Source: Methylohalomonas lacus (GTDB lineage Bacteria > Pseudomonadota > Gammaproteobacteria > Methylohalomonadales > Methylohalomonadaceae). From it: a stretch of 64,000 nucleotides of DNA. Position numbers and translations under genes: made by a program. The notes beneath the pieces were generated by a model that worked only from the letters and a program-made list of their open reading frames with translations, searched no databases and had not been told where the DNA came from. Below, in pieces: positions 49,221-58,073 of this stretch. Within the stretch, counting starts at the first letter, position 1; each line of letters opens with the position of its first letter. The stretch lies in the NCBI RefSeq assembly GCF_024808875.1, contig NZ_JANUCT010000002.1:62001-126000 (forward strand), read 5' to 3'.

Positions 49221-50010
49221 GCGATAACCTGTCTCTAAAATTGTGTTTCATATAGTCTGTCAGATGGCGTGCCTGTCTACCGCGTGGCTGCGAGCAATCA
49301 ATAACCTGCGCCGGAGAAAAAGCGGGCGCGACCTCGATGTCGTAAATAATCGTTGTTGCCGGCACGGCATACCAGGGGCTGCCTTTCTTGAGTGCGTCGT
49401 GATTGCAGCGAATGCAGACGGGTAATATATCCGCCTGCGCTGCCAGCGCAATATTTGCCACACCGCGTTGCAGTGGTCCGAGGACCTGACCGGATGGCGT
49501 GCGCGTGCCTTCCGGAAAGATCACCAGCGGCACCTGTTGTTGCAAAGCATGCCTGCATTGTTCGAGCAACTGCTCCGCCGGCTGGTCATTGCGGATGTAA
49601 CCGGCGGCACTGATAAAGGGCGCCAGAAACGGGTTGCGCCACAACTGGTGCTTGACGAGGCAGTGGGCACGCGGCAACCGCCCCAGCAGGATCACGACGT
49701 CCAGCAGGGTTGGGTGATTGGCGATGATCAGTACACCGCCTGCCTTACCGAGCTGTCCTTTACCCTGTATGGTAACTCTGATGAGGCCGAGACAGTCGAG
49801 GAAATCCACGAACAAGCCGAATGCGTGGCAGATCAGGCGCTGGGTCTGTCGTTGCCGGACTGTACGAAGTGGAATGAGCAGCAGTGGCGCCGCCAGCAGC
49901 GCCAGCAGCACGGCACCGCCGCCGAAGGCAGCAAACGCCAGCGCCGTGGCCGCCAACCGGCGGCCGCGTTCAAGCGTCTGTCGTAACCCGGCGTAGTTGC
50001 CAGCCGCCAT
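49201..50010 (-). CDS. 1-acyl-glycerol-3-phosphate-type acyltransferase (APE cluster)
   Basis: A 269-residue membrane-associated acyltransferase. A hydrophobic N-terminal segment (about residues 18-48) precedes the catalytic NHPTLLDVVIL motif (HxxxxD) and FPEGTRTPSG. It would transfer an acyl or aryl-polyene chain to a glycerol-type acceptor. It overlaps the ketosynthase-like gene upstream by 41 bases, the longest overlap in the operon. Confidence 0.9.
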   Translation of the reverse strand: MAAGNYAGLRQTLERGRRLAATALAFAAFGGGAVLLALLAAPLLLIPLRTVRQRQTQRLICHAFGLFVDFLDCLGLIRVTIQGKGQLGKAGGVLIIANHPTLLDVVILLGRLPRAHCLVKHQLWRNPFLAPFISAAGYIRNDQPAEQLLEQCRHALQQQVPLVIFPEGTRTPSGQVLGPLQRGVANIALAAQADILPVCIRCNHDALKKGSPWYAVPATTIIYDIEVAPAFSPAQVIDCSQPRGRQARHLTDYMKHNFRDRLSHASAGR

Positions 50011-50698
50011 GTTCGCCGCTTAACAGTAAGCAATCTTCATCATTATTTACTTCATCCAGCCAGCGCGCCAGCGCCAGCGCCTGCCGCAGGGGCCAGACGT
50101 CGGCGCTTTGATCCGCATGGGCGCTGAACTCAAGGCGCACACCCGGCCCGCCGGGCGCCGCAAGTAGCAGGGCCAGTGCACAGCTGCAGGTATCGGGCGG
50201 GTCATTGTCCGCATACGCGTCAGGCAGTGGCAGATCGGTGTAGACCAGCAGTACCGGCTGGTCGGGTTGTACCTGCAGCTGGGCGACAGCCTCGGTCAGG
50301 CCGGCCAGCAGTGTATCGCGGCCGGCGGCGAGCGCGGAGTGGGGCGTATTGATCGCCCACTGGATGGCGGCGATACCGAGCGGTGCATTGTGTACCGACA
50401 TGCTGAAGTCGGTCGGCGAGGGTGATTCGCCGGCGGCAATGTCGGCTATCATCTTCAATGTCCGCTGCAGGTCGCCGTGGCGTGACGCCAACACGAGCGA
50501 CGGACTGGCGCCGTCCGCACCGGCCGTGGCGATCACCTGGGCGGTGGCACGGCCGAACAGGCCCTGGCGCCGACGCATGCCCGCGTCGAGCTGTTTGCCG
50601 AGCTCGGCGGCCGGCAGCTGCTCGCCATGCAGCGCGTTGCTGGCCGGATCATCGGTCCATACGTACCAGTCTACCAGTGTCAGTTCAACGGATGGCAT
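49970..50698 (-). CDS. Ketosynthase-like chain-length-factor protein (ApeC type)
   Basis: A 242-residue protein matching only the N-terminal half of a ketosynthase. It has no active-site cysteine motif; the landmark SMSVHNAPLGIAAIQWAIN is what I associate with the beta-ketoacyl synthase N-terminal domain (ApeC-like) of APE clusters. It probably pairs with one of the complete ketosynthases as a chain-length factor. It is the first enzyme gene of the leftward operon, 18 bases after the small lipoprotein gene. Confidence 0.87.
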   Translation of the reverse strand: MPSVELTLVDWYVWTDDPASNALHGEQLPAAELGKQLDAGMRRRQGLFGRATAQVIATAGADGASPSLVLASRHGDLQRTLKMIADIAAGESPSPTDFSMSVHNAPLGIAAIQWAINTPHSALAAGRDTLLAGLTEAVAQLQVQPDQPVLLVYTDLPLPDAYADNDPPDTCSCALALLLAAPGGPGVRLEFSAHADQSADVWPLRQALALARWLDEVNNDEDCLLLSGEHGGWQLRRVTTDA

Positions 50699-50716
50699 GG
50701 GCTGGAGCGGCCGGTT

Positions 50717-51121
50717 TCAGTCGCCGGTAGCGGCCAGCGCGGCTACTTCAGCAATAATATCGTGACGCAGATTGTTGACCCAGCGATTGTAGTTTCGGTG
50801 AATCTTCTCGCCTTCGTGCAGCAGGTTGTCGCTGTCGGCGTAATGAATGGAGAACTGCTGGCGATCGAATTCCACGCGCACCTTGGCCATATGATCGCGG
50901 GGGCTGTAAGTGCCCAGCAGTTTGCCCGATCCTTCGGCCTGCAGAATCCAGCCGCGTTTGGCACCGGCACGAATGATCGCCGCTTCGATCTGTTCGAGTT
51001 CGAGCTGTTCGCTGCCCGCCGGCAACGGCTCCGATGCGATATTTTCAATGGGCTGCAGGCGCGAACAGGCTATCAGTGCGATCAGCAAGCATAGCCATAG
51101 GCCGTGTTTAATGTGTTTCAT
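50717..51121 (-). CDS. Small lipoprotein at the head of the APE operon
   Basis: A 134-residue predicted lipoprotein, lipobox LIAC with Cys19. The mature part includes EAAIIRAGAKRGWILQAEGSG and HRNYNRWVNNLRHDI. I do not recognise the family; short lipoproteins of this type do occur in APE clusters. A strong AGGAGG ribosome site lies before the ATG. It seems to be the first gene of the long leftward transcript. Confidence 0.82.
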   Translation of the reverse strand: MKHIKHGLWLCLLIALIACSRLQPIENIASEPLPAGSEQLELEQIEAAIIRAGAKRGWILQAEGSGKLLGTYSPRDHMAKVRVEFDRQQFSIHYADSDNLLHEGEKIHRNYNRWVNNLRHDIIAEVAALAATGD

Positions 51122-51155
51122 GGGTCCTCCTGGAATCGTTTCTGTAAATCACTGC

Positions 51156-51260
51156 CCTCTGAGCAGAGGCCAGGCAACGGTTGTTCACATGTGAATATGA
51201 TTACACGGCCGTGGCAGCAGGCGACAGTGATAACGGAAAGTTGGCAAACGGGCGTGCCAA
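51156..51260 (-). promoter_or_regulatory. Dyad-rich upstream region of the APE operon
   Basis: The 214-base leader region holds two perfect dyads: CCTCTG-AG-CAGAGG (51156-51169) and TTCACATGTGAA (51184-51195). Further upstream on the - strand TTGGCACG then TTTGCC (51243-51260) resembles a sigma-54 site but with one extra base between the GG and GC elements. The dyads lie 35-75 bases before the lipoprotein start, suitable for operator sites. No regulator gene is identified in the window. Confidence 0.3.
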
Positions 51261-51303
51261 TATTGCTGATTTCAGGGTTTGAATCCGGCTTCATTGATCC
51301 ATA

Positions 51304-51330
51304 AAAAAAGGACCGCAAGGGTCCTTTTTT
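51304..51330 (-). terminator. Intrinsic terminator of tRNA-Ser
   Basis: An 11-bp stem (51304-51314 with 51320-51330) has a GGACC/GGTCC core and six A-T pairs. It is followed on the - strand by a run of T, six bases past the tRNA 3' end. It is symmetrical enough to work in either direction. Confidence 0.8.
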
Positions 51331-51335
51331 CTGTT

Positions 51336-51428
51336 TGGCGGAGAGGGAGGGATTCGAACCCTCGAAGAGGCTATAAACCCCTTACACACTTTCCAGGCGT
51401 GCGCCTTCGACCGCTCGGCCACCTCTCC
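51336..51428 (-). tRNA. tRNA-Ser (anticodon GGA)
   Basis: A 93-base type-II tRNA. The acceptor stem GGAGAGG/CCTCTCC, discriminator G and encoded CCA are visible. The anticodon loop CTGGAAA gives GGA (reads UCC/UCU). The long variable arm and the GGTTCGAATCC T-arm are present. A terminator follows. Confidence 0.95.
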
Positions 51429-51446
51429 AGATTTTCAAGATGCGCG

Positions 51447-51475
51447 AGCGTATACAAATTAACGCTGTAGCGCAA
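51447..51475 (-). promoter_or_regulatory. Candidate promoter of tRNA-Ser
   Basis: On the - strand TTGCGC (51470-51475) and TACGCT (51447-51452, overlapping a TATACG) are 17 bases apart. A GC-rich discriminator follows, as in stable-RNA promoters. The tRNA begins about 18 bases after the -10. Confidence 0.4.
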
Positions 51476-51478
51476 TTT

Positions 51479-52114
51479 TCAGATACTGGATACGCCGTCC
51501 GTGACAAGCTCCGGCGGCAGTCGTTCGAGATCTTCGGGCCGGTCGATATCGCTGTACTCCGGCAACTCGTGCCAGGCGAGCCCGGCGTGGCGCAGGCGCT
51601 GCCGGGTTTCATCCAGCACGCTGCCGGTGCCCCAGGGCATGTCGTCAAAGATCCCGACGACCGGCCGGCGCAGGCCGATCAGGTAATAGCCGCCGTCGCT
51701 GGCCGGGCCGAGCACGGCATCGGCGCCGGCGCGCAGCCAGCCGGCCGCCTGACGCAGATCGGCCACAGTCAGCGCCGGGCAGTCGCAGCCCATCAGCAAC
51801 GCGAACCGCGCCCGTGACAGGGCGGTACTCAGTGCCCGCGACATACGCTGGCCCAGGTCGTCGCCCTGCTGTTGCTGCAGGCGTACGCCGAAATGACCGG
51901 CCAGCCGGCGGATGCTGGTGGCGCTGACATCCGTCGACCAGAGTTCGACCGTCGCAAAGCCGCTGCCAGTGGCGGTTTGCAAGCTGTGACGCAGCAGCCG
52001 CTCATACAGCTCGGCGGCGCCGGTCTCGCCCAAGGCCGGGATCAGCCGGCGCTTGGCCTGGCCCGGTTCCGGCGGCTTGCTGAAGACCTGCAGGGTGCCG
52101 CGGATGTCTTTCAT
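51479..52114 (-). CDS. DUF2064 / TIGR04282-type glycosyltransferase
   Basis: A 211-residue protein of the GT-A fold family known as DUF2064, sometimes named arsenosugar glycosyltransferase TIGR04282. It has FSKPPEPGQAKRRLIPALGE, LMGCDCPALTVADL and DAVLGPASDGGYYLIGL, the nucleotide-sugar binding elements. It usually accompanies the next gene. The substrate here is unknown, since no arsenosugar genes are in the window. Confidence 0.88.
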   Translation of the reverse strand: MKDIRGTLQVFSKPPEPGQAKRRLIPALGETGAAELYERLLRHSLQTATGSGFATVELWSTDVSATSIRRLAGHFGVRLQQQQGDDLGQRMSRALSTALSRARFALLMGCDCPALTVADLRQAAGWLRAGADAVLGPASDGGYYLIGLRRPVVGIFDDMPWGTGSVLDETRQRLRHAGLAWHELPEYSDIDRPEDLERLPPELVTDGVSSI

Positions 52115-52124
52115 GAACGCTGCC

Positions 52125-52853
52125 TCATTGATAATAGTCGCGCGCCAGCCGTGCCGGGTCGGCGCCGAGCCGGTAGGCCAGGCGCAAGCGCCACATGATC
52201 AGAATCGTTCGCAGACGGCCATGACGCTGCCAACGACGGGCCGAGGTTAACACGCGCGTACGCAGACAGGCCGGCGGGCCGATGCTTTTCAGACGATCCG
52301 ACAGTGCCAGGTCCTCCATCAAGGGGAGCTCCGGGTAGCCACCGACCGCGGCAAATGCCTGCCGGGTAACGAAAATCGCCTGGTCGCCAGTGGCTACACC
52401 GGTCAGGCGCGAGCGCAGGTTCATGCAGGCTGCAACTAGCAGCAGGATTCCATCGGCCGGTTCGATACGGACGTCGAAACGCCCCCAGCGATATCCTGTC
52501 GCCAGCGCGTGGCGGGCATCTTCCAGCGCCGTCGGTGGCAGTTGCGTATCCGCGTGCAGGAACAGCAACAGCGGATGCCGGGCCACGGCCGCACCGGCGT
52601 TCATCTGCCGGGCGCGGCCGCGTTCACCGGCCAGCGTCCGATCGGCAAGGCCCTGCGCCCGCTCGACGGTCGCGTCGCTGCTGTCGCCGTCGACGACGAT
52701 GACCTCGTGCCCGGCCTCGCGCAATGGCTGCAGGGCGCGGAGCGCCGCCTCGATGCCGGCCGCCTCATTGAAGACCGGCATGATTACGGAAACCTTATCG
52801 TCGACGGGTTGACCGGGCATGGGGCGGCTGTCTGCGGGCATGATGAACGCCAT
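52125..52853 (-). CDS. TIGR04283-type family-2 glycosyltransferase
   Basis: A 242-residue GT2 enzyme: VSVIMPVFNEAAGIEAAL, VVDGDSSDAT, LFLHADTQLPP and LPLMEDLALSDRLK. It is ten bases upstream of the DUF2064 gene in the same orientation, forming the usual pair. ATG 52853 is my choice; ATG 52841 is equally possible since neither has a clear ribosome site. The frame running to 53006 reads through tRNA-Ala on the other strand and is not a real extension. Confidence 0.87.
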   Translation of the reverse strand: MAFIMPADSRPMPGQPVDDKVSVIMPVFNEAAGIEAALRALQPLREAGHEVIVVDGDSSDATVERAQGLADRTLAGERGRARQMNAGAAVARHPLLLFLHADTQLPPTALEDARHALATGYRWGRFDVRIEPADGILLLVAACMNLRSRLTGVATGDQAIFVTRQAFAAVGGYPELPLMEDLALSDRLKSIGPPACLRTRVLTSARRWQRHGRLRTILIMWRLRLAYRLGADPARLARDYYQ

Positions 52854-52874
52854 TATGCCGTGGTGGTATGACTG

Positions 52875-52903
52875 TAGCGATGTCGGTATGTATTCGTTAG
52901 AAT
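52875..52903 (+). promoter_or_regulatory. Candidate promoter of the tRNA-Ala/tRNA-Arg unit
   Basis: TAGAAT (52898-52903) is a five-of-six -10 box followed by a CGCGC discriminator, 16 bases before tRNA-Ala. The best -35 with 17-base spacing is TAGCGA (52875-52880), weak. No promoter is obvious in the 50-base gap between the two tRNAs, so they are probably co-transcribed. Confidence 0.42.
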
Positions 52904-52918
52904 ACGCGCAGTCTTGAA

Positions 52919-52994
<76 letters not shown>

Positions 52995-53044
52995 ATTTCT
53001 CTCCATCCGCTATCATCCATCCTGAGTCTCCCGGATAAAACCAC

Positions 53045-53120
53045 GCCCTGGTAGCTCAGGGGATAGAGCGACGGCCTCCTAAGCCGTAGGTCGCAGGTTC
53101 GAATCCTGCCCGGGGCACCA
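53045..53120 (+). tRNA. tRNA-Arg (anticodon CCT)
   Basis: A 76-base cloverleaf: acceptor GCCCTGG/CCGGGGC, anticodon stem ACGGC/GCCGT with loop CTCCTAA giving CCT (reads AGG), T-arm GGTTCGAATCC and encoded ACCA. A perfect hairpin starts at the final A. Confidence 0.95.
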
Positions 53121-53159
53121 TCTTCATTAGGGGAGCTTTTGAGCTCCCCTAATGAAGAT
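53120..53159 (+). repeat. Perfect 18-bp hairpin directly after tRNA-Arg
   Basis: Bases 53120-53137 pair perfectly with 53142-53159 around a four-base TTTG loop. There is no T-run after it, so it is not a standard terminator, although it could still stop transcription or protect the tRNA 3' end. The repeat extends further with mismatches (see the inverted T-arm copy). Confidence 0.9.
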
Positions 53160-53176
53160 TGGGTTTCCAGCTGGCC

Positions 53177-53192
53177 ATTCGAACCTGCGGCC
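53177..53192 (-). repeat. Inverted partial copy of the tRNA-Arg T-arm
   Basis: Reading the - strand, 15 of these 16 bases match the tRNA-Arg segment 53089-53104 (GGxCGCAGGTTCGAAT). It lies almost symmetrically opposite the original across the hairpin at 53120-53159, so the 3' part of the tRNA and its flank look like an imperfect inverted duplication. Confidence 0.75.
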
Positions 53193-53348
53193 GTATCGAC
53201 AACACGGTTCGACCGCTTCATTCATGGCATAACCCTAGTTGCTGCTTGAGCTCTCGGTTTATCAAGGGCGACAGGCCATGAGGCGAACACTCTGCGATCA
53301 ATCGCTGCGTACCGGGATCGCTGGCATCATTCATGCGATACTTGCGCT

Positions 53349-53996
53349 ATGCATTTTCCGTCATTGAACGTATGCGCCGGGCCAGGGTATGGCTATGCCT
53401 GGCTCGGCAGGCGTGATGCCCAAGCATGTACAGGTGTTGAAGCGCTGACCACGGCGGCGGATTCCAATGCCGTCGCACACTATCATCATGCCGATCGCCG
53501 CCAGGCATCACTGCTGGCACGCGGTTTATTGCGGTATCTTTACCAGCGTCTGTACGCGATGGAGACTGACGTGGCCATAGTCAAAAGCGCGGACGGTTGT
53601 CCGGCGCTGGCTGACAGTGCGGGCAGGTATTTGCTGTACGCCAGTATTACTCACAGTCACGATATGGTTGCCGTGGCCCTCGACGAGACGGGCGCGATCG
53701 GTATCGACGTGGAATTGTGCAGGACTGAACGCGACTGGCCGGCTATTGCCCGGCGCATCTTTCCAAAAAGGATTGCCGAACGGTTGCAGTCAGCGGAAAA
53801 CTTTTACCGTGCCTGGTGTCTTTATGAAGCCTGGGGCAAGGCGAATCATCTGCAACATATCAATGTAACGCAAAATTCCGGCTTGCTGTCGTTGCTCGAA
53901 GACTGTTTGAATGATGCCATTCATCCAAATGTCATCATGTTTTGTCCCGATGACGATTATCAGGCCAGTGTCTTTCGACGTTCGGCGTCGGCATAG
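53349..53996 (+). CDS. 4'-phosphopantetheinyl transferase (Sfp/AcpT-like)
   Basis: A 215-residue enzyme that would convert apo-ACP to holo-ACP with coenzyme A. The family motifs are SITHSHDMVAVAL, GIDVELCR (metal-binding Asp and Glu) and AWCLYEAWGKANHL. AcpT/Sfp-type enzymes often serve secondary-metabolite carriers, and the two APE ACP genes are 4 kb away, so it is a good candidate for activating them (inference). A codon-poor 190-base stretch separates it from tRNA-Arg. Confidence 0.87.
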   Translation: MHFPSLNVCAGPGYGYAWLGRRDAQACTGVEALTTAADSNAVAHYHHADRRQASLLARGLLRYLYQRLYAMETDVAIVKSADGCPALADSAGRYLLYASITHSHDMVAVALDETGAIGIDVELCRTERDWPAIARRIFPKRIAERLQSAENFYRAWCLYEAWGKANHLQHINVTQNSGLLSLLEDCLNDAIHPNVIMFCPDDDYQASVFRRSASA

Positions 53997-54011
53997 CTAT
54001 GGGGGAGGCGT

Positions 54012-55448
54012 ATGCGCATTTTTCGCAGCAAGCGACAGGCATGCCGCAACTGGCTGCTGTTACTGATCGTTACCACTATTATGGCGACTGCCTGTAGTGA
54101 CGCCGGTGACGCAGGCAATAGGCACCAGAACGGTGAATCCGATGACGGACCGGAAACCATGGTCCGGGATCTGGATGAGATTCGCGACTCCGGCACTTTA
54201 AAGGTACTGACGCGCAATGCGCCAACGACCTGGTATATCGATCAGGATGGCATGCCGGCCGGACCGGAACACGATCTGGTGCAGGCATTCGCCGATGAGC
54301 TCGGTGTTGAGATCGACTATCAGCTGGTGGACAGCGTCAGTGAGATACTGGATGCGCTGGCACGCGGTGAGGCGGACCTGGCCGCCGCCGGCTTGACGGT
54401 TACGCCCGAACGCCAGCAGCGTTTCCGTTTTGGACCCAGCTATCAGGACGTGACCCAGCAGGTGGTATGCCGGCGTGACCGTGTGCAGCCCGAGGAACTC
54501 GGGGACCTGGTCGGTCTTGATATTCGCGTCATTGCCGACAGCAGTTACAGCGAGACCCTGCAACAGCTCAAGGCGAAACGGTTTCCGGAACTGGCCTGGA
54601 GCGAGTCCGACGACACGACCAACACCGAGCAGCTGATGCACCAGGTCTGGCAGGGCGAGTTTGATTGCACGGTGGCCGACTCGAATATTGTCGACATCAA
54701 CCGCCGCTATTATCCGGAATTGATCGCGCCGCTGAACCTGCGCCGCGAGGAGTCACTCGCCTGGCTGATGCCGCAGGCCGCGGGAGATCTGGAAGCGGCA
54801 ATCGGTGACTGGTTGCAGACGTATAAGGATGCCGGTCGGCTGGATGCCTGGCAGGAGCGTCATTACGGTTTTTTCGAGGTGTTTGACTACGTCGACATAC
54901 GCGCCTACATCCGCCGTATCGACAAGCGCTTTCCAAAGTATCGTGGCTATTTCCGCAAGGCCGCGCAGGAACATGATCTGCCGTTCACGCTATTGGCCGC
55001 GCAGGGCTACCAGGAATCACACTGGAATGCGCTGGCCAGGAGCCCCACCGGTGTACGCGGTATCATGATGCTGACCCAGAATACGGCCAAGGCCATGGGC
55101 GTGGATAATCGCCTCGATCCGCGACAGAGCATTTTCGGCGGCGCCAAGTATCTGGCCCGCATGAAACAGCGCTTTGTCGACGAGGTCAGCGAACCGGATC
55201 GCACCTGGCTGGCTCTGGCCGCCTACAATGTCGGCCGCGCTCACCTGCACGATGCCCAGACACTGGCGCGGCGTCAGGGGCTCAGCCCGCACACCTGGCG
55301 CGATATCAAGCAGGTCTTGCCGTTGCTGGCGGACAAGCGCTATTACGCCGACCTGAAATACGGCTATGCCCGTGGCACCGAGCCGGTCCGTTATGTTCAG
55401 CGGATCCGCGAGTACCGTCACGTACTCGAAGAGGAACACAGCGACTGA
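54012..55448 (+). CDS. mltF: Membrane-bound lytic transglycosylase F
   Basis: This 478-residue lipoprotein cleaves peptidoglycan to leave 1,6-anhydroMurNAc ends. Lipobox MATAC gives Cys28. Residues about 60-290 are a periplasmic solute-binding-protein-3-like domain (LKVLTRNAPTTWYID, ARGEADLAAAGLTVTPER). Residues about 310-440 are the SLT catalytic domain with catalytic Glu in QGYQESHWNALARSPTG and NTAKAMGV, AAYNVGRAHL. This order is diagnostic of MltF. Confidence 0.94.
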   Translation: MRIFRSKRQACRNWLLLLIVTTIMATACSDAGDAGNRHQNGESDDGPETMVRDLDEIRDSGTLKVLTRNAPTTWYIDQDGMPAGPEHDLVQAFADELGVEIDYQLVDSVSEILDALARGEADLAAAGLTVTPERQQRFRFGPSYQDVTQQVVCRRDRVQPEELGDLVGLDIRVIADSSYSETLQQLKAKRFPELAWSESDDTTNTEQLMHQVWQGEFDCTVADSNIVDINRRYYPELIAPLNLRREESLAWLMPQAAGDLEAAIGDWLQTYKDAGRLDAWQERHYGFFEVFDYVDIRAYIRRIDKRFPKYRGYFRKAAQEHDLPFTLLAAQGYQESHWNALARSPTGVRGIMMLTQNTAKAMGVDNRLDPRQSIFGGAKYLARMKQRFVDEVSEPDRTWLALAAYNVGRAHLHDAQTLARRQGLSPHTWRDIKQVLPLLADKRYYADLKYGYARGTEPVRYVQRIREYRHVLEEEHSD

Positions 55449-55563
55449 GTACGGCACCGCAACATTGCGGCGTTGGAACCGTTGCGCTGCCTTTGATAGG
55501 GTGACAGGATCATTTTATCGCCATAATAGAATCCCGGCTGTTTGCCGGGCCAAGGAGTATTGA

Positions 55564-56058
55564 ATGCAAGTCAATGAAAATTGTGCAGTTTCCATCCATT
55601 ACACGCTCTCCGACGAGGAAGGCCAGCAGCTCGATTCCTCGGTCGGCCAGGAGCCGCTCGTCTATCTGCACGGTGCCAACAACATCATTCCGGGCCTGGA
55701 ACAGGCGCTGACCGGCAAGGCCGAGGGCGAACAGGTCCAGGTCACGGTACAGCCGGAGGAAGGTTTCGGTGAAGTCAATCCCGAGCTGGTACAGAGCGTG
55801 CCGCGCGAGGCATTCCAGGGCGTCGACAAGGTCGAGCCGGGCATGCAGTTCGGTGTCCAGGGTCCGGAAGGCCAGACCCAGCGCGTCACCGTCAGTGAAG
55901 TGCACGACGACACCGTGACCATCGATGGTAACCATCCGCTCGCCGGCCAGGTGCTGCATTTCGATGTGACCGTCGAGAAAGTCCGCGAAGCCTCCGCCGA
56001 GGAAATCGAGCAGGGTATGCCGGGCGAGCAGGAAGAACCGGGCCAGGCACAGGCCTGA
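55564..56058 (+). CDS. SlyD-like FKBP peptidyl-prolyl isomerase
   Basis: A 164-residue FKBP-type isomerase and chaperone. The FKBP core brackets an insert-in-flap domain, as in SlyD: SIHYTLSDEEGQQLDSS, GANNIIPGLEQALTG, GFGEVNPELVQSVPREAF and HPLAGQVLHFDV. The C-terminus is short, acidic and glutamine-rich, and lacks the metal-binding histidine/cysteine tail of E. coli SlyD, so nickel binding is not expected. Confidence 0.93.
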   Translation: MQVNENCAVSIHYTLSDEEGQQLDSSVGQEPLVYLHGANNIIPGLEQALTGKAEGEQVQVTVQPEEGFGEVNPELVQSVPREAFQGVDKVEPGMQFGVQGPEGQTQRVTVSEVHDDTVTIDGNHPLAGQVLHFDVTVEKVREASAEEIEQGMPGEQEEPGQAQA

Positions 56059-56095
56059 TCACGCTGTAACCTCTTCTGCTGCAGGTCGCGCGTCG

Positions 56096-56122
56096 CGCCG
56101 CTTTGTTGTCAATAAAGCGGCG
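56096..56122 (+). repeat. Hairpin after the FKBP gene
   Basis: CGCCGCTTT (56096-56104) pairs with AAAGCGGCG (56114-56122) across a nine-base loop. It lies 38 bases after the FKBP stop. The downstream sequence has no T-run, so it may be a weak or Rho-assisted terminator. Confidence 0.4.
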
Positions 56123-56178
56123 GGCGCGTCGTGCGCCAGTGCCATGCCTGCGGTAAACTACACGCCGTTTTGATCAAT

Positions 56179-56295
56179 GGTGGCCTGTGCCGGTCCGCCC
56201 GGTGGCGTTGCGCCGTAAACCCCGTCAGGCCCGGAAGGGAGCAGCGGTAGCGGTTGCAATGGGTGCCGGTGTGGGGCGGGTATGGGCCGCCACCC
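56179..56295 (+). ncRNA. ffs: Small bacterial signal recognition particle RNA (4.5S)
   Basis: The conserved apical hairpin core GTCAGGCCCGGAAGGGAGCA begins at 56223; E. coli has GTCAGGTCCGGAAGGAAGCA. The ends GGTGGCC (56179-56185) and GGCC-GCC-ACC close a long stem-loop. Exact ends are estimated. A TAAACT box at 56154-56159 might be the -10. It is upstream of dnaX, a common position in gammaproteobacteria. The 350-base gap between FKBP and dnaX holds only this RNA and the hairpin above. Confidence 0.9.
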
Positions 56296-56408
56296 TTAAA
56301 TATTTCCGTGGCGGTTGCCGGCCGGATTCTCTCGACCCGTGGTCTCTGGCATGATGGCCTCAGCATGATGATGACGATGACGCTGTTTCCTGTCCCGCGA
56401 GGCGACGC

Positions 56409-58073
56409 ATGAGTTACCAGGTTCTGGCCCGCAAATGGCGGCCGCATCGTTTTGAAGACGTGGTCGGCCAGGAGCACGTGCTCAGGGCGCTGGCGAATGC
56501 GCTCGATAGTGACCGCCTGCACCACGCCTACCTGTTTACTGGCACACGCGGCACCGGCAAGACCACGCTGGCGCGCATTCTGGCCAAGTGCCTGAATTGC
56601 GAGCAGGGCGTGAGCTCGACGCCCTGCGGTGAGTGCGATACCTGCCGCAGTGTTGATGAGGGTCGTTTTGTCGATCTGATCGAGGTCGACGCTGCTTCTC
56701 GTGCCAAGGTCGACGAAACCCGCGATCTCATGGACAACGTCCAGTACGCGCCCAGCGTCGGCCGCTTCAAGGTGTACCTGATCGACGAGGTGCACATGTT
56801 TTCCGGGCACAGTTTCAATGCGCTTTTAAAGACGCTGGAGGAACCGCCGCCGCATGTGAAATTCCTGCTGGCGACCACCGAACCGAAGCGCATTCCGATC
56901 ACGATCCTGTCACGCTGCATCCAGTTCAACCTCAAGCACCTGGCGCCGGCGCAGATCGAGTCCCAGCTGACGAAGATCCTCGACGCCGAGACACTCAGCT
57001 ACGAGCCCGCCGCCTGCCGGCTGATTGCGCAGTCGGCCGAGGGCAGCCTGCGCGATGGCCTGAGTCTGCTCGACCAGGCGATTGCCTACGGCAACGGCAG
57101 TCTCGCCGAGGCGCCGGTGCGGGAGATGCTTGGCACGCTTGACGCCGGCGCGCTGCTGGAGATTCTCGAACAGCTGGCGCAGGCCGACGCCGCCGGGCTG
57201 ATGCGCTGCGCCGCGCGCCTAGCCGAACACCAGCACGACTACGCCGCCGCGTTGGCGGAAATCAGCAATTGCCTGTACCGCATCGCCGTCATTCAGGTGG
57301 CCGGCAGCGATCCGGAAAGCGGTGTCGACAGCGAGCGGCTACAGGCGCTGGCGCAGGAGATGAGTCCCGAGGACGTGCAGCTTTACTACCAGATCGCGTT
57401 GCAGGGCCGTCGCGATCTGGCGATGACGCCGGATCCGCAGGTCGGCTTCGAGATGACCCTGGTGCGTATGCTGGCGTTTCGCCCGGCCGTCGCCGTCGCA
57501 AGCGATGGCACGGCGGGTGGCGGTCAGACCCGGGCAGTGAGCCAGGCCACCACCAGCGCTGCTGCGCCCGCGGCGGCGGTCGGGGCGCAAGCGTCGGCGG
57601 CGCTGGCAAAACCGGCGGGTGCAGACAATACGGCGAGCGCGCCCACGGATGATGCCGTGGCCGAGCCGCGACCGGCGACTGTAGCGGGTACGCTGCAGCC
57701 GGACGACTGGGGCCAGGCAATCGATGCCATGCAGCTGTCCGGCCTGGTGCGCCAGCTGGCCAGTCACTGCGTGCTGAAACAGCACAGCGGCCAGAAGCTG
57801 GAATTGATCATGCCGCCGGAACACGAGCCGCTGCTCGCCAGCGTGCAACAGGAAAGGCTGCAACAGGCGTTGCGCGACTATCTGGATCCGGACCTGAAAC
57901 TGGTCATCACGGTCGAAAAGACCGAGCGTGAATCACCGGCGGATGTGCGTTTGCGCGAGGCTGATGAACGCCAGCGTGAGGCGGTTCGGGCGGTGGAACA
58001 GGACCCGCTGGTGCAGTCGATGATGGAAACCTTTAATGCCGAGATCGACCCGCAGTCGATCCAGCCCGAATAA
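56409..58073 (+). CDS. dnaX: DNA polymerase III gamma/tau subunit
   Basis: The clamp-loader subunit that couples replicative polymerases. The 554-residue protein opens YQVLARKWRPHRFEDVVGQEHV. The Walker A motif is GTRGTGKTT, zinc ligands lie in CEQGVSSTPCGECDTC, Walker B/DExx is LIDEVHMFS, and SRC is in TILSRCIQFNL. Residues about 365-425 form an Ala-rich linker before the tau-specific C-terminal domain. I see no A-AAA-AAG slippery site in the gene, so a shorter gamma form by that route is not expected. Confidence 0.96.
   Translation: MSYQVLARKWRPHRFEDVVGQEHVLRALANALDSDRLHHAYLFTGTRGTGKTTLARILAKCLNCEQGVSSTPCGECDTCRSVDEGRFVDLIEVDAASRAKVDETRDLMDNVQYAPSVGRFKVYLIDEVHMFSGHSFNALLKTLEEPPPHVKFLLATTEPKRIPITILSRCIQFNLKHLAPAQIESQLTKILDAETLSYEPAACRLIAQSAEGSLRDGLSLLDQAIAYGNGSLAEAPVREMLGTLDAGALLEILEQLAQADAAGLMRCAARLAEHQHDYAAALAEISNCLYRIAVIQVAGSDPESGVDSERLQALAQEMSPEDVQLYYQIALQGRRDLAMTPDPQVGFEMTLVRMLAFRPAVAVASDGTAGGGQTRAVSQATTSAAAPAAAVGAQASAALAKPAGADNTASAPTDDAVAEPRPATVAGTLQPDDWGQAIDAMQLSGLVRQLASHCVLKQHSGQKLELIMPPEHEPLLASVQQERLQQALRDYLDPDLKLVITVEKTERESPADVRLREADERQREAVRAVEQDPLVQSMMETFNAEIDPQSIQPE

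Follow-up and report, generated by a model that had tools for sequence, protein, structure and literature searches.

A probable relic of an RtT-like tRNA-end repeat unit behind a tRNA-Arg(CCT) gene of Methylohalomonas lacus

What is the stretch of DNA behind a tRNA-Arg(CCT) gene of Methylohalomonas lacus, in which a long hairpin is followed by a part of the tRNA in reverse? The gene lies in the 64,000-nt stretch that was analysed as a whole (the window), and is surrounded by ordinary genes for a glycosyltransferase, a phosphopantetheinyl-transferase-like protein, a solute-binding/transglycosylase protein, an FKBP protein, and dnaX. A small SRP RNA (RF00169, 59.2 bits) is located at 56192-56285, just upstream of dnaX. 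An earlier note on this DNA had described a perfect hairpin starting at the last base of the tRNA and, on its far side, 16 bases that match the T-arm in reverse with one mismatch, and had read the whole as a decayed palindromic duplication of the tRNA 3' end. Both pieces were recovered by a repeat search, and re-reading the letters of both gave the same result. The hairpin arms (53120-53137 and 53142-53159) are complementary at all 18 positions, and the first base of the hairpin is indeed the last base of the tRNA. It is the longest perfect inverted repeat with a loop of 3-8 nt in the window, the runner-up being an 11-bp hairpin behind tRNA-Ser(gga). The outer arms (53089-53104 and 53177-53192) are 16 nt long and 94% identical. 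A copy in inverted orientation is real, but it covers the variable region, the 5' T-stem, and the T-loop, and the acceptor part of the tRNA 3' end is absent from it.

The match spans just 16 bases. We inspected the 41 tRNA genes of the genome, searching 20-120 nt away for an inverted copy of a 16-mer offset by two bases from the repeat-search arm, with up to four mismatches allowed. Such a copy occurs downstream of five tRNA genes and in none of the 41 mirror-image upstream stretches. This result indicates that the match is not due to chance and that tRNA-Arg(CCT) is not alone. With the shifted 16-mer, tRNA-Arg(cct) has three mismatches, a value that was not equalled in any of 200 shuffles of the DNA downstream of it. 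The octamer GGTTCGAC is found within 130 nt of four of the 41 tRNAs, all four of which also have an inverted T-arm with at most five mismatches. Across 369 genomes of the class, the pattern of a T-arm, 42-72 bases, and an inverted T-arm occurs in 31, and the reversed pattern in none. Given the reversed-pattern and upstream controls, a chance match is hardly credible. A worn convergent tRNA gene is equally improbable as the origin of the match, as neither ARAGORN nor Rfam finds an opposite-strand tRNA downstream of tRNA-Arg. Another inverted T-arm copy (GGATTCAAACCCTGAA, minus strand), in a more advanced state of decay, is present at 51271-51286, past the terminator-like hairpin of tRNA-Ser(gga) (51336-51428, minus strand), so that the window holds two such relics.

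In other genomes, the inverted T-arm is one part of a unit whose order recurs behind many tRNA species. Specifically, the tRNA 3' end with CCA is followed by, in most cases, a terminator-like hairpin, and then by the inverted T-arm, GGTTCGAC, short hairpins, and a direct copy of the tRNA 3' end, which in intact units runs from the T-loop through CCA. The inverted T-arm often includes some of the variable region, and a second form of it has GGATGAGAACC in place of GGATTCGAACC. Its mean local score is 23.9 against the own tRNA and 17.0 against other tRNAs, with the own tRNA strictly the best of seven isotypes in 34 of 71 units. A pattern for the unit body matched in 53 of the 369 genomes, compared with 5 matches for the control. 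Thirty loci were fetched; they contain 33 body places, 22 of them with a same-strand tRNA upstream, and in 20 of these 22 the 18 bases at the body end are exactly the 3' end of that very tRNA. The direct copies are tRNA-specific. Among the remaining 11 body places, four are unrelated-looking matches (L144, L145, L157, and L159), and in another four (one in L152, three in L155) a contig begins at the body place. At L146-L148, the body sits directly inside the T-loop of a tRNA copy, and an intact tRNA-Ser follows downstream in L146 and L147.

These units bear on how the inverted piece arose. In a foldback duplication, the template would have switched at the hairpin, the 3' half of the tRNA would have been copied backwards, and the middle would then have decayed. 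The two arms of the window locus are nearly concentric on the hairpin, and the near-contiguous inverted copies of L109, L123, and L166 include acceptor bases, so that the inverted piece could have had such an origin. In the intact units of other genomes, however, the middle is usually unmatched: the hairpin stem is unrelated between loci and the acceptor stretch usually lacks a match, while the inverted T-arm is constant. Foldback also leaves the adjoining GGTTCGAC at its expected place unexplained. We consider it unlikely, and the decayed palindrome of the earlier note is probably not the right description. By that note's own criterion, its reading would fall if all relatives lacked the inverted copy and the hairpin were a plain terminator; this is not the case, as similar copies stand behind many other tRNA genes.

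The window locus has the left half of the unit. Its inverted T-arm is offset by 56 nt from CCA, compared with 46-58 nt in first complete units elsewhere, and GGTTCGAC, which occurs only once in the window on either strand, fits the usual range (mostly 47-89 nt past CCA in other first units). For the body, we used a covariance model, R1, made from 50 bodies, none of them from the genome studied here; a first consensus fold based on a poor alignment had two pairs and was superseded by A2/R1. At tRNA-Arg(CCT), R1 matches the GGTTCGAC 8-mer alone (6.5 bits, E 0.09 in 1.2 kb). The Rfam model RtT (RF00391) has no match at E≤1 within 50000-57000, and the hairpin-array body expected of RtT between GGTTCGAC and ATCC was not found at this locus. 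A direct copy of the tRNA-Arg(CCT) 3' end is absent within 900 bp, the best candidate having 7/20 mismatches at +620. With the left half kept at usual spacing and the hairpin body and the direct copy undetectable, the locus is best read as a decayed unit, probably an RtT-like tRNA-end repeat of which the left half survives in worn form. As it fails the RtT model, we call it a relic and not a member. The earlier note had advised looking for integrated elements at tRNA-Arg(CCT); units with bodies were found behind tRNA-Arg(cct) itself in two genomes (G689 and G697), where the direct copies are reduced to the first few bases. These two units illustrate how a relic like that of the window can arise.

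Table 1. Parts of the tRNA-Arg(CCT) junction in the window and places of R1 bodies in the same genome
Feature	Position	Strand	Evidence or remark
tRNA-Arg(CCT), intact, CCA encoded	53045..53120	+	ARAGORN; Rfam RF00005, 72.1 bits
Original of the inverted copy (GGTCGCAGGTTCGAAT): variable region, 5' T-stem, and T-loop	53089..53104	+	Inverted repeat arm
Perfect 18-bp hairpin, 4-nt loop, in terminator-like position, without T-run behind it	53120..53159	+	Repeat search, letters re-read
Inverted copy of the tRNA variable-region/T-arm stretch, 15/16	53177..53192	-	Repeat search, genome tRNA control
Conserved octamer GGTTCGAC that opens the unit body, 85 nt past CCA	53206..53213	+	
R1 body, 62.3 bits			Beside tRNA-Arg acg
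R1 body, 61.8 bits			tRNA-Thr cgt
R1 body, 46.5 bits			tRNA-Gln ctg
R1 body, 38.8 bits			tRNA-Ser tga
R1 body, 30.3 bits	G000:C5:61703-61789	-	Behind tRNA-Leu(gag), on the strand opposite to the tRNA
R1 body, 30.0 bits	C1 contig start		Flanks resemble tRNA-Arg ccg
R1 body, 22.1 bits			Beside tRNA-Ser gct

In the same genome, R1 finds bodies at seven places, six with at least 30 bits and one with 22 bits (Table 1). The body at tRNA-Leu(gag) is the only one of the seven on the opposite strand. Some contig starts of this genome (G000) may carry traces of other elements. The starts of contigs C7 (1-105, L077) and C17 (1-105, L068) are identical to each other, resemble an insertion-sequence end, and are separated from tRNA 3' ends by no more than about 10 bp; the start of contig C1 (1-140, L008) is similar to, yet different from, the C7/C17 end. 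The tRNA-Arg(ccg) on C7 and the right half of a unit on C1 look like the two sides of one insertion. At L005, upstream of the body at tRNA-Arg(acg), a transposase-like open stretch, identified by eye, adjoins the inverted T-arm, and this unit appears as if it had been split from its tRNA by a mobile element.

tRNA 3' ends are common targets of integrative elements, and the earlier note had taken the junction as a possible scar of one. The structure does fit the scar of an occupant of the tRNA end; the occupant, however, measures about 110-200 bp and is non-coding, unlike a gene-carrying island. The scar of a large gene-carrying integrative element is very improbable, as no integrase family is represented among the eight neighbouring ORFs scanned between 49204 and 58070, the direct tRNA-end copy is lacking in the 900 bp mentioned above, and the anatomy of the small unit accounts for the pieces. 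The units share with tRNA-targeting integrative elements (att at the tRNA 3' end) a direct duplication from the T-loop through CCA that keeps the tRNA whole, but differ from them in being short and gene-free, in having an inverted T-arm, and in forming tandem copies.

The closest known counterpart is found in Escherichia coli. The tyrT/tyrV repeats with the RtT RNA (rttR, RF00391) have the same parts, namely the tRNA end, an inverted T-arm-like stretch, GGTTCGAC, hairpins, and a direct copy of the tRNA end. In contrast to these repeats, the window locus has tRNA-Arg(CCT) as host instead of tRNA-Tyr and lacks a detectable body and direct copy, and most other units have the terminator-like hairpin between the tRNA and the rest. 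With the Rfam RtT model (cut-off 45), units of tRNA-Lys and tRNA-Tyr in other genomes score 68.4, 60.0, and 46.8 bits, and two units of the own genome stay under the cut-off (31.1 and 26.7 bits). A K-12 RtT query matched in 4695 of 5426 E. coli genomes, with a median of 3 places per genome (range 1 to 14). RtT is absent from strain 98203, which has two tRNA-Tyr genes; strain NCCP 13963 carries a single unit, located behind the second tRNA-Tyr gene. In the alignment of the two, one 178-bp block differs there, between GGTTCG and AATCCTTCCCCCACCACCA, and the tRNA is intact in both. AATCCTTCCCCCACCACCA is present twice where the 178-bp unit is present, and the flanking direct repeat of the tRNA end is 19 bp long. 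K-12 has a further, different unit behind the first tRNA-Tyr gene, which is absent from both strains. Units are thus gained and lost cleanly at a tRNA gene. The exact loss could be plain recombination between the 19-bp repeats, and site-specific movement is not proven by it. Copy-number change is already in print, as PMC2658671 lists a 175-bp variable-number repeat at the rtT RNA among the differences of Salmonella Paratyphi A strains.

According to its annotation, the RtT RNA is processed out of the tyrT transcript. The stretch behind tRNA-Arg(CCT) might itself be a functional RNA or DNA element maintained in its present form: in read-through transcripts, the inverted T-arm would pair with the T-arm of the tRNA, or else transcription would end at the hairpin. 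A 161-nt stretch of the locus has a very stable predicted fold (-88.3 kcal/mol, z -7.95), in which the T-arm pairs with its inverted copy. Covariation in support of RtT, a tandem GA motif included, is given in PMC7657543, and PMC8092127 reports RtT to be induced by cold in Thioalkalivibrio. At tRNA-Arg(CCT), however, the body of RtT is missing; no T-run follows the stem, and the hairpin has no intrinsic-terminator score in a consensus scan. A plain terminator was rejected on this score, and we regard a functional element kept as such as quite improbable.

As to the units at large, one body per genome and tRNA species was used for a similarity test (58 bodies, 46 genomes). Bodies at different tRNAs of the same genome have a mean similarity of 0.751 in 15 pairs, compared with 0.708 for label shuffles, 47 of 5000 of which reach it, uncorrected for base composition. 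For bodies that share the tRNA species but not the genome, the mean similarity barely exceeds chance (0.718 compared with 0.708; 164 of 2000 shuffles), likewise uncorrected. In the clearest same-genome pair, the bodies at tRNA-Gln(ttg) and tRNA-Val(gac) of G015 are 95% identical, so near-identical bodies do sit at different tRNAs within one genome. The central hairpin has a C-GNA-G loop in 49 of the 50 bodies. G-U pairs, which bear on RNA versus DNA as the level of folding, number 54/1305 in the forward and 66/1289 in the reverse direction, both below shuffles, and so favour neither level. A subtype comprising only part of the bodies (L142, L160, L161, L166, and others) has GGA in hairpin loops, for example CACAGGGATGTG, which we take to resemble CsrA/RsmA sites.

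R1 at E≤1e-5 finds bodies in 62 of 398 genomes of a phylum sample, many of them from one family of another class. Of 83 checked hits, 56 have a same-strand tRNA upstream, with a direct copy of at most 4/16 mismatches in 30 of them; the other 27 lack a tRNA, and 19 of these are dispersed repeats of genomes G683, G572, and G560. The body hence also exists away from tRNAs. These dispersed repeats (L245-L264) are possible relatives of AaHKsRNA22 (RF02902): body relatives in G683 and G572 match that family below its cut-off, with five (L246, L247, L250, L256, and L257) of the eight loci submitted to Rfam doing so. AaHKsRNA22 differs in not being tied to tRNA genes, and has no match at the window locus. 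REP elements and integron attC sites are likewise short, palindromic, and possibly folded as single strands, but their motifs differ; the target of the units is the tRNA T-loop, and no transposase or integron integrase is linked to them here. A phage attachment site was tried and rejected: in the 80 viral stretches checked, out of at least 120 with a match, R1 finds a single body, and the tRNA in front of it may be host DNA. A unit from G015 matches 3 of 50,697 phage records, and the window stretch, among the phage and plasmid matches listed, matches with its tRNA part only. The E. coli unit is found in 24 of 72,556 plasmid records, several of chromosome size.

Among the relatives listed, none is of the same genus, family, or order, so an intact ancestor of the window's own unit was not seen. 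Synteny via the MltF-like gene (54012-55448) gave 27 relatives, and the 18 that were scanned hold one tRNA in all, a tRNA-Met; there is therefore no orthologous tRNA junction among them. In a search for empty sites within genus g351, the syntenic flanks were too broken to be of use.

An intact unit sits after the T-loop of a tRNA gene and carries its own copy of the tRNA 3' end, so that the tRNA is whole with or without it. We propose the following for the origin of such a relic. Entry may occur by recombination in the T-loop, perhaps through a recombinase acting in trans on a folded strand, with the inverted T-arm as a putative recognition or folding element, and the direct repeats may allow units to be amplified or lost between them. 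At tRNA-Arg(CCT), body and direct copy would have eroded, and the tRNA transcript would be left with a 3' hairpin at best. More tentatively, and as a possibility we would not yet favour, RtT-type units may form a general gene-free mobile class at tRNA genes of Gammaproteobacteria and of one or more further classes of the phylum, in which a hairpin body of about 80 bp enters the T-loop, carries or re-makes the T-arm (inverted) and the 3' end (direct) of its target, and depends on functions supplied in trans for its mobility, perhaps in the form of a folded DNA single strand as in integron attC recombination.

The feature of the window is a relic that would have a minor role at most. The tyrT repeats are annotated in E. 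coli as a small RNA processed from one transcript; their architecture is widespread, specific to the host tRNA, and cleanly gained and lost; in the literature searched, we found no description of the inverted T-arm or of the spread of the unit over tRNA species. Two questions can now be put to the test: how a gene-free unit is brought into the T-loop of a tRNA gene that stays unharmed, and why the unit has an inverted T-arm. If the proposed class is real, the tyrT repeats of E. coli would be captured copies of a mobile element and not a peculiarity of tRNA-Tyr.
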